Source: a virus
IMG/VR virus record: IMGVR_UViG_3300032073_000166
Coordinates: 1 to 29,070 of that record
Direction: 5' to 3' (one strand)
Length of the DNA stretch: 29,070 nt
Position 1 is the first letter of the stretch; every line of letters starts with the position of its first letter. The translations under genes were made by a program, and so were the position numbers. This document shows, piece by piece, positions 585 to 29,070 of this stretch. The notes under the pieces were generated by a model. It saw only the letters and a list, made by a program, of their open reading frames with translations, had not been told where the DNA came from and ran no database searches.

Positions 585-609
585 TGGCTACACATATAAA
601 TTTATTCAT
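556..609 (-). pseudogene. ssb remnant: ten ssb codons then early stop
   Basis: From the ATG at 609 the frame reads MNKFICVANV, nearly the ssb N-terminus (MNKLLCAGNV / MNKLICVGNV), then GFRFKTF and a stop. It keeps a Shine-Dalgarno (AAGGA, spacing about 6), and its ATG overlaps the RNA ligase stop as ATGA. After codon 10 the ssb similarity ends and sequence of the 140-aa paralog begins in another frame. I read it as the scar of a duplication or deletion that replaced an ssb body. It may survive as a translated 17-codon leader that feeds ribosomes to the overlapping ATG at 584. Confidence 0.6.
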
Positions 610-1142
610 ACTATATCCTTCTTTTTTATTTTAGCCATGCGCCCGTCTGGATGATGGAACACTACACCTTCATACGTTGTATTTTTTAGAAACTCATATA
701 TATCTTGCTTTGTTCTATCAACTTCAATCACTTCTGCTTCTCTGTGGCTTATTAAGACATGCTCACTATATCCTTCTGGGTTTTTTTGGATTTTTGGACC
801 ACATAACTCATAAGTGCCGTTTTCTTTGTTTTTTAAATTGTTAAACCCTTCAACGTGAAACTTATTAGTATTATCGTTAAAATCTACTGGAACCCATCCT
901 GTTGTTTTATTTGTAATAGCGTCCTGCGTCTCTTCAATAAACCCTTCTGGCACTGTTTGCCCTTTCTTAATTTCTCTTCGCTTGTAAAAAAGTCCATCTT
1001 TAATCATACAGCAAGTACCATCATACTTTCTTTTTGCTGTTCCTTCCCCATTAAATACCCATTCACATGCTGGATGGATCTCGTCTAGCAATTCCCTCAT
1101 ATTCTCTGGGTTTCTCTTGTATATTGTTGGTATTTTTTTCAT
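606..1142 (-). CDS. RNA ligase, RLIG1/DUF5565-like
   Basis: The 178-aa product carries covalent nucleotidyltransferase motifs. Motif I is KYDGTCC at residues 39-45, with Lys39 as probable AMP-accepting lysine; an EGVV motif IV is at 158-161 and motif V-like AKIKKKD at 170-176. The KxDGTCC signature and the EGVVFHHPDGR-AKIKKKD ending are what I know from the DUF5565/RLIG1 family, whose animal member joins RNA 5'-phosphate and 3'-hydroxyl ends. It is compact compared with the animal enzyme (about 325 aa). Expected role: sealing broken host or phage RNA, for example tRNAs cut in defence (inference). No polynucleotide kinase/phosphatase partner is visible. Start supported by AAGGAAGGAAAG. The stop overlaps the ssb remnant start (ATGA). 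Confidence 0.75.
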   Translation of the reverse strand: MKKIPTIYKRNPENMRELLDEIHPACEWVFNGEGTAKRKYDGTCCMIKDGLFYKRREIKKGQTVPEGFIEETQDAITNKTTGWVPVDFNDNTNKFHVEGFNNLKNKENGTYELCGPKIQKNPEGYSEHVLISHREAEVIEVDRTKQDIYEFLKNTTYEGVVFHHPDGRMAKIKKKDIV

Positions 1143-1191
1143 TTTTCTTTCCTTCCTTTAATTACCTAATATGAATATTGTTTTTATTTAA

Positions 1192-25366: not shown

Positions 25367-26038
25367 CTAAATAATTAGAACCCTTTCCCCTTTTTTTACA
25401 GCTTTTAAAATCTCCTTATCTTCTTGTAGCTCTTTACTTGCATACTTTAAGGCGAAAGCGTCCTTATTTACTGCAGCCAGTACCACATCCCTGTCAGCCT
25501 GCAGTTCCTCACTTGCATACTCTAAGGCACAAGCGTCTTTATTTATCGCAGCCATTACTATAGCCCTGTCTTCCTGCAGCTCTTTACTTAGGAAGCGCAA
25601 GACGTAAGGGTTTTCATTTATCGCAGCCAGTACTACATCCCTATCTTCCTGTAACTCTTTACTTAGGAAGACCAGGAGGTAAGCATTTTTATTTATGGCA
25701 GTAAGCACTAAATCCCTATCTTCCTGTAACCCTTTACTTGCATACTTCAAGGCCCAAGGGTTTTTATTTATCGCAGTAAGCACCAAATCCCTGTCAGCCT
25801 GCATCTCTTTACTTGCATATTCTAAGGCGAAAGAGTTTTTATTTACTGCTGCAAGTACAATATCCCTGTCCGCTCTCAGCTCTTTACTTGCATATTCTAA
25901 GGCAAAAGCGTCCTTATTTACTGCTGCAAGTACGACATCCCTGTCAGCCTGTAGCTCTTCACTTGCATACTTTAAGTCTGAACCCCATTTATTTACTGCA
26001 GCTAAAACGAACCCCTTATCACTTTGCCTTTTATTCAT
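25367..26038 (-). CDS. DUF4116 repeat protein
   Basis: The 223-aa product is built of about eight repeats of 25 residues (75 bp), with the pattern DRDVVLAAVNKDAFALEY followed by ASKELxx; the first and last units are partial. Each unit is a two-helix DUF4116-type repeat, forming a superhelical scaffold for protein contacts. I know the family from intracellular bacteria and large DNA viruses; a copy in a phage is noteworthy. Units vary at positions 12-18 (NKDAFAL, NKNSFAL, NKNPWAL, NENPYVL) while the DRDxVLxAxNK frame is kept. It lies between promoters at 25336 and 26369 and has a ribosome site AGGAG. Confidence 0.8.
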   Translation of the reverse strand: MNKRQSDKGFVLAAVNKWGSDLKYASEELQADRDVVLAAVNKDAFALEYASKELRADRDIVLAAVNKNSFALEYASKEMQADRDLVLTAINKNPWALKYASKGLQEDRDLVLTAINKNAYLLVFLSKELQEDRDVVLAAINENPYVLRFLSKELQEDRAIVMAAINKDACALEYASEELQADRDVVLAAVNKDAFALKYASKELQEDKEILKAVKKGERVLII

Positions 26039-26719: not shown

Positions 26720-26875
26720 TTATTTTACTAACTGGCTTATGCCAGGTACACCCATAATGACAAGCCCCACACAATCATTACTTGACAACGTTTTGCCGAC
26801 GTCAGCAAAACGACCTGACACCTTGTGACCTGAAGTTTCGCAGGAAGATTTTGCTTTTAAAACTATATCACTCAT
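26720..26875 (-). CDS. Small hypothetical protein, 51 aa
   Basis: The ATG at 26875 lies just inside the end of the methyltransferase gene (AATGAGTGA overlap), giving MSDIVLKAKSSCETSGHKVS and the end IMGVPGISQLVK. A longer frame starting at 26944 would overlap the methyltransferase by 77 bases. No family recognised. It is coupled to the methyltransferase and directly followed by rusA. Neither start has a good ribosome site. Confidence 0.45.
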   Translation of the reverse strand: MSDIVLKAKSSCETSGHKVSGRFADVGKTLSSNDCVGLVIMGVPGISQLVK

Positions 26876-28085
26876 TAAAATCTGAGCAGACTGCCCCATT
26901 TCTTTTAACAGTATATTTTTTATTGTTTTTCTTGCAGAAATCAACGTATCTCTTGACTATGACATCGCAATACTTCTCATCTAATTCCATGCCATAGCAT
27001 TTACGATTTGTTTTCTCGCAGGCTATTAGGGTAGACCCTGAGCCGAGGAATAGATCGAGGCATGACTTTACCTTATGATTATTAATAGCTCTTTCTGCTA
27101 ATTCAGTGGGCTTTTGCGTTGGGTGAAAATCGTTTTTAGCATCTCTTTTCATTTCCCAAATCGTTGCCTCGGTTGTCGCTCCGCACCATCTAAGCGTTGA
27201 GCCTTTTGGCTTCCAGTAAAGGCACGGCTCATGCCTCTGTTTATATTGTGCATTCATAGCCGCATATTTTGCATTTACCTTGTGCCATATTATTAAGGAA
27301 TGAATTTTACCAATTTTATTTACTGCACTATATAAATCAATTGGTTTTGTATCAGCAAACCACGTATAACAAGGGCCATCACAAATCGACGCCAAAATTG
27401 GAATAACGTCTGTATATATATTTGACGATTGATCGTTTTTTAACTTTTCTCTTTTTCTTGTTATATTTACATTGCCAGAATGAAAATGCCCCCCCTCATA
27501 ATTGACGCCATACGGAGGATCGGTAAACACCATATCAGCCTTTTCACCATCCATTAGCTTATCAACATCATCAATCATAGTGCTATCACCACACATAACC
27601 CGATGCTCCCCTAACTCGTATAAATCGCCCTTAACAGTAATGGCTGGCACTGCCTCTGGCACTTCGTCATCCCCTGTAGTTTCGTCTTCTTCATCTTCCC
27701 CCATGATATCTATTAAGCCATAATCGCCCATATCAAAAAAATCGCCTATATCTAACAATTCCCCCTTTAAAATGTCATTATCAATCTGGGCTGCTCTGCT
27801 GCTTTCATTGTCGGCAATTCTTGCAGCTGCCGCCTTTTCTGGCGTGTCTAAAGTATGATTAACAATAACTAAAGGTATTGTTTTGTGATTAAGTTCCTTC
27901 AAGGCTTCATATCGCCCATGCCCTTTAACGATTACATAATCAGGATCTACAACAATAGGTACGTCAAAATTGAAATCTTCTATGCTATTTTTTATATGTT
28001 CCCTGTTAAGCTCGTGCGATTGATAGTTCTTTTCATATGGTTTTATTTTCGTTATTTCCACATGTTCAAGCGTTTCTATTTTCAT
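26868..28085 (-). CDS. ParB-like domain fused to DNA methyltransferase
   Basis: The 405-aa product has an N-terminal ParB-like nuclease domain (about 1-110; VIVKGHGRYEALKELN at 51-66) and a C-terminal N6-adenine/N4-cytosine methyltransferase. Motif IV is TDPPYG (188-193), and motif I, DLFLGSGST (344-352), comes after it with HPTQKP (321-326) between, giving the beta-type order. Such ParB-methylase fusions are common in phages as orphan methyltransferases, and protect DNA from host restriction or mark packaging DNA. No restriction gene is nearby. A G7 run lies at codons 197-199, just after DPPY, so length changes there would cut the enzyme. Confidence 0.9.
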   Translation of the reverse strand: MKIETLEHVEITKIKPYEKNYQSHELNREHIKNSIEDFNFDVPIVVDPDYVIVKGHGRYEALKELNHKTIPLVIVNHTLDTPEKAAAARIADNESSRAAQIDNDILKGELLDIGDFFDMGDYGLIDIMGEDEEDETTGDDEVPEAVPAITVKGDLYELGEHRVMCGDSTMIDDVDKLMDGEKADMVFTDPPYGVNYEGGHFHSGNVNITRKREKLKNDQSSNIYTDVIPILASICDGPCYTWFADTKPIDLYSAVNKIGKIHSLIIWHKVNAKYAAMNAQYKQRHEPCLYWKPKGSTLRWCGATTEATIWEMKRDAKNDFHPTQKPTELAERAINNHKVKSCLDLFLGSGSTLIACEKTNRKCYGMELDEKYCDVIVKRYVDFCKKNNKKYTVKRNGAVCSDFNE

Positions 28086-28775: not shown

Positions 28776-29070
28776 TCAATTGAAAAAACTAATAGATTCA
28801 TCACTAAAACTTTCTGCATTCTCGGTATGGCCCTTACCCTTTTTCAATCTATTAATTTGATCCACAAGGTAAATATCTGATGGGTACTCACCATCAACTT
28901 TTTTACCGTTTTTAATCTTACCTATAATAGATACCATGTCCCCCTTTTTGATGTTTCGCTTCACATATTCGGCAGTTTTCGAAAAAGCCATGAAGCTTAA
29001 AAAGTCAGACTCATACTCGTTTGTTTCTTTGTTTTTATACTCTCTTGTTACCGCAACAGAGAAATAAGTC
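28776..29070 (-). CDS. ssb: ssb, 5' end cut by right window edge
   Basis: The readable 97 codons begin TYFSVAVTREYKNKETNEYE and end NAESFSDESISFFN. They align with the intact ssb at 1709-2068 (YFTIAITREYKNK, FMAFAKAAEY, IKKGDVVS, INRLKKGK), starting at about its codon 23-24. The partner 5' end could be the ten codons at 1-30 if the molecule is circular. As a full gene it would make about 120 aa. The C-terminal tip DESISFFN is acidic and aromatic, closer to the host-docking SSB tip than that of the other copy. Confidence 0.88.
   Translation of the reverse strand, partial: TYFSVAVTREYKNKETNEYESDFLSFMAFSKTAEYVKRNIKKGDMVSIIGKIKNGKKVDGEYPSDIYLVDQINRLKKGKGHTENAESFSDESISFFN

Follow-up and report, generated by a model that had tools for sequence, protein, structure and literature searches.

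A gene on the minus strand of a tailed-phage record very probably encodes a single-domain ATP-dependent 5'-phosphate/3'-hydroxyl RNA ligase of the RLIG1 family (DUF5565, PHROG 14301). The window analysed here is the whole virus record, 29,070 bases long, in which genes for a terminase, an HK97-type portal, a tape measure protein and an endolysin are found. The ligase ORF runs from 1142 to 606, from ATG to TGA, and codes for 178 amino acids; the original prediction named no strand, and the plus-strand frame over the same interval is closed by several stops. This very small RNA ligase, from a phage record of about 29 kb, has its catalytic motifs complete; should it prove active, it would make a convenient reagent and a clear-cut test of the lower size limit for RNA ligases. 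The gene and its motifs are located as follows.

606..1142, minus strand: RLIG1/DUF5565-family RNA ligase, single nucleotidyltransferase domain, 178 aa (profile, PDB sequence match, model and fold comparison)
1151..1158, minus strand: Shine-Dalgarno sequence AAGGAAGG, 8 nt ahead of the ligase ATG (read from the sequence)
1017..1028, minus strand: motif I, KYDG, codons 39-42, with the predicted adenylylated Lys39 and Asp41 (aligned with Yasminevirus K73/D75; invariant in 97 of 97 loci)
978..980, minus strand: motif Ia, Arg55 (aligned with Yasminevirus R89)
807..809, minus strand: motif III, Glu112 (aligned with Yasminevirus E174)
744..746, minus strand: motif IIIa, His133 (aligned with Yasminevirus H195)
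669..671, minus strand: motif IV, Glu158 of EGVV (aligned with Yasminevirus E240)
630..632, minus strand: motif V, Lys171 of AKIKKKD (aligned with Yasminevirus K253)

Family, fold and active-site residues could all be established by computation. The PHROG 14301 'RNA ligase' profile matches residues 1-177 with an E-value of 2.5e-57, well beyond what chance would give. A phmmer search of the PDB with the single sequence retrieved 9c6l (E 7.4e-13), the match strengthening to 1.4e-22 with a profile, and the two Yasminevirus RLIG1 chains (9c6l and 9c6m) are the only convincing sequence matches in the PDB. The Pfam RLIG1 model (PF17720) matches the query alone weakly (E 1.4e-4, 21.3 bits, just below the curated cut-off of 25), in a local alignment spanning only residues 103-175, motifs III to V; it matches all 17 viral members, with a best E-value of 8.8e-16. 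The phrog_562 profile (RNA ligase and tail fibre attachment catalyst) also gave a weak hit, at E 0.004, which we discounted as similarity at the superfamily level. The original prediction had assigned the ORF to RLIG1/DUF5565 from KYDGTCC, EGVV and AKIKKKD; these are all present in the 178-aa product, at residues 39-45, 158-161 and 170-176, and the assignment proved right on profile, fold and active-site residues.

An AlphaFold2 model built with a 17-sequence alignment has a mean pLDDT of 92.8 and a pTM of 0.81, and shows a single nucleotidyltransferase (ATP-grasp-like ligase) fold as in 9c6l. The top Foldseek matches of this model are twelve 9c6l/9c6m chains (E 5e-12 to 3e-9). VIA-align superposes it on 9c6l with a Z-score of 17.4, at 2.3 A over 173 of the 178 residues and 30% identity; a Naegleria RNA ligase (Z 9.6) and T4 Rnl1 (Z 9.1) come next, and T4 Rnl2 (Z 7.5) and Lig E DNA ligases (Z about 7) lie lower. 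According to the model, the protein is the nucleotidyltransferase core alone, with all 178 residues used and no added RNA-binding domain.

The catalytic residues named for Yasminevirus RLIG1 are K73, D75, R89, E174, H195, E240 and K253 (PMC11494293); the 9c6l PDB chain numbering is one higher than the numbering used in that paper. All seven are matched in the phage ligase, by K39, D41, R55, E112, H133, E158 and K171, and the spacings within blocks are identical in the two proteins (16 from motif I to Ia, 21 from III to IIIa, 13 from IV to V). The seven residues are invariant in 17 viral sequences and kept in 96-97 of the 97 loci, viral and cellular, that were compared, the one row without motifs III-V being probably the truncated contig L017. 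Mutation of the equivalent residues in Yasminevirus RLIG1 lowered adenylylation and ligation (PMC11494293).

By homology, Lys39 would attack ATP to form a ligase-AMP intermediate, the AMP would be passed to the 5'-phosphate end of an RNA, and a neighbouring 3'-OH would then attack with release of AMP. R55, E112 and H133 would position the nucleotide, and D41, E112, E158 and K171 would bind Mg and the phosphates. RNA ligase activity of the phage protein is likewise expected from tested homologs. Constructs of several RLIG1 homologs have been made, including one bacterial and one 'C. phage RLIG1', and tRNA halves bearing 5'-P/3'-OH ends were ligated by several of the bacterial and viral homologs (PMC11494293). 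Cellulophaga phage phi10:1, the only phage with the initial C among our hits, may be the 'C. phage' of that study, whose protein may or may not be one of the active homologs.

The phage ligase is a new member of a family whose name, phage members and homolog activity are already on record. Members of PHROG 14301 and RefSeq DUF5565 such as Cellulophaga phage phi10:1 gp057, Mycobacterium phage Collard gp74 and the Streptomyces and Deinococcus plasmid copies resemble it in length, carry all motifs and are roughly 40-48% identical; they occur in other phages, with no structural difference from the window ligase. In phi10:1 gp057 (L106 4001-4549, NC_021802.1), the alignment with the window protein begins at residue 2 of the latter, 16 codons before the annotated start, which has therefore probably been placed too far downstream.

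Yasminevirus RLIG1 shares the fold, the catalytic residues and their spacing, and the absence of a separate RNA-binding domain, but its chain has 277 aa. From the residue numbers, the phage ligase lacks some 28 residues in the interval from motif Ia to III and some 20 from motif IIIa to IV; as these segments are missing, its RNA preference may differ. Human RLIG1 (C12orf29, PF17720) has in common with the phage ligase a family-level sequence match and the KxDG motif; the human protein has an extra segment at aa 81-111, and the Pfam model extends over 324 positions, with the phage query falling below its cut-off. T4 RNA ligase 1 (Rnl1) shares the nucleotidyltransferase core and, presumably, the 5'-P/3'-OH chemistry, whereas the phage ligase lacks the Rnl1 RNA-binding domain, is distant in sequence and was found with no Pnkp partner.

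Such an enzyme would probably serve to rejoin nicks in structured RNA, with tRNA cleaved in the anticodon loop by defence nucleases of the host as the most likely target. It would act on cuts that leave 5'-P/3'-OH ends, or on ends that host enzymes have healed. We infer this RNA target and an anti-defence role in tRNA repair with about even confidence. The repair of RNA cut by host defence was also predicted for viral RLIG1 by the authors of PMC11494293.

The original prediction that no kinase or phosphatase partner lies nearby holds for the whole record. No match to the kinase AAA_33 (PF13671), the phosphatase PNK3P (PF08645) or RlaP was found in this record or in 14 related viral records, some of them perhaps incomplete, in profile searches in which the named control genomes did match. 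Yasminevirus, a giant virus, also encodes a Pnk-like protein, whereas no such partner was found with the phage ligase. Since no healing partner was found, substrates need 5'-phosphate/3'-OH ends, or else host enzymes must heal them. This yields a simple prediction of which defence nucleases could be countered. A stand-alone ligase could still be of use, since at least one defence tRNase, AriB of PARIS, generates a 3'-OH, with a 5'-phosphate expected at the other end of the cut (PMC12409363). It is possible, if on balance doubtful, that compact phage RLIG1 proteins act alone, with no end-healing enzymes, as dedicated antidotes to defence RNases that leave directly ligatable 5'-P/3'-OH ends (PARIS AriB-like or of PIN type). 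Such an answer would contrast with that of T4 to PrrC, which uses Pnkp together with Rnl1.

An active RLIG1-type ligase could also serve other RNA processing (circularisation, tRNA or mRNA, of phage or host), or the gene could be a neutral mobile passenger; we rate this alternative a little short of an even chance. The searches turned up relatives in 17 viral contigs, 20 phage records, many of them already annotated as RNA ligase, 13 plasmid records, some of them as 'DUF5565 family protein', and 191 loci of bacterial and archaeal genome contigs. Many bacteria have copies on chromosomes or plasmids with no phage or defence context visible here, which favours a role outside defence. So does a 96-row tree in which viral and cellular members are interleaved, with 12 label changes, at least six of them forced by well-supported branches, some of the cellular contigs being possibly prophage themselves. 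The window ligase has mixed neighbours in this tree, and the interleaving suggests repeated transfer of the gene between phages and cells.

The missing partner and the lack of a constant neighbour point in the same direction. Clustering the neighbours within six genes at the loci retrieved gave no family that was seen in more than five of them; the few recurring families look like local synteny among related Actinomycetes, the gene calling being crude for high-GC genomes. Bacterial DUF5565 neighbourhoods are enriched in RNA-related domains and tRNA genes (PMC10364804). The window contains no tRNA genes and no Rfam RNAs, and tRNA genes are present in only four of the 17 viral loci, in one of them (L016) close to the ligase. 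No tRNA gene, partner enzyme or constant neighbour points to a particular target, which counts against the tRNA-repair reading. The catalytic residues are fully conserved in diverse phages and cells, which argues against a mere passenger, and RNA-damage repair, the known or proposed role of the tested homologs, speaks against this alternative.

A minimal DNA ligase or other covalent nucleotidyltransferase, for example of Lig E type, sealing nicked DNA in phage replication or recombination, is very unlikely. The superfamily fold is indeed common to Lig E DNA ligases, and the gene lies in a DNA-metabolism region with SSB, Rad52-like and RusA-like genes. However, the model matches the RLIG1 structures much better than any DNA ligase (Z 17.4 compared with about 7), no DNA-ligase profile in Pfam, PHROGs or NCBIfam matches the protein, and human RLIG1 ligates RNA and not nicked DNA (PMC11494293). 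A decayed or inactive leftover of a longer RNA ligase, as the roughly 100 residues that it lacks against the Yasminevirus chain might suggest, is hardly credible given the intact catalytic residues, a model confident from end to end and relatives of equal length.

The median length over 97 loci of the family is 185 aa, so that the small size belongs to the bacterial and phage branch, in which some 180-190 aa are normal. The description of the protein as nearly a minimal catalytic unit thus stands for its 178 aa, but this is the usual size across that branch and does not set the window ligase apart.

No phage near-identical to positions 1-25000 of the window was found in the phage collection. 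Three contigs with an 89% identical terminase were found as sister phages; these IMG/VR contigs (L103, L104 and L105) are partial, and in the structural region their DNA matches the window at 78-84% identity for long stretches. None of the three covers the ligase locus, the longest ending just past the replication gene, and neither an empty site nor a close orthologue was found in them.

Besides the structural genes, the window encodes a replication initiator, a Rad52-like annealing protein, a RusA-like resolvase, SSB and a DNA methyltransferase. An orphan ORF of 165 aa (1192-1689), immediately upstream of the ligase, has no family match and, by pattern search, no relatives in IMG/VR, where none were found for the ORF at 2065-2448 either. 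A two-gene block made of a small basic ORF and an SSB gene is duplicated and flanks the orphan ORF and the ligase on both sides (162-584, 2065-2448, 1709-2068 and 28776-29069); the small ORFs are 42% identical to each other and the SSBs 61%. By comparison with SSB1, a single SSB gene seems to be split across the window ends (1-30 and 28776-29070), with MNKLICVGNV at the left end, on the minus strand, and TYFSVAVTREY at the right end. As this gene apparently spans both ends, the record looks like a near-complete circular map with about 40 bases missing. The methyltransferase at 26868-28085 is a DNA N6/N4 methyltransferase whose N-terminal domain is ParB-like, and the ORF at 25367-26038 encodes a protein built from seven copies of the functionally uncharacterised DUF4116 repeat (Pfam E 7.8e-108).
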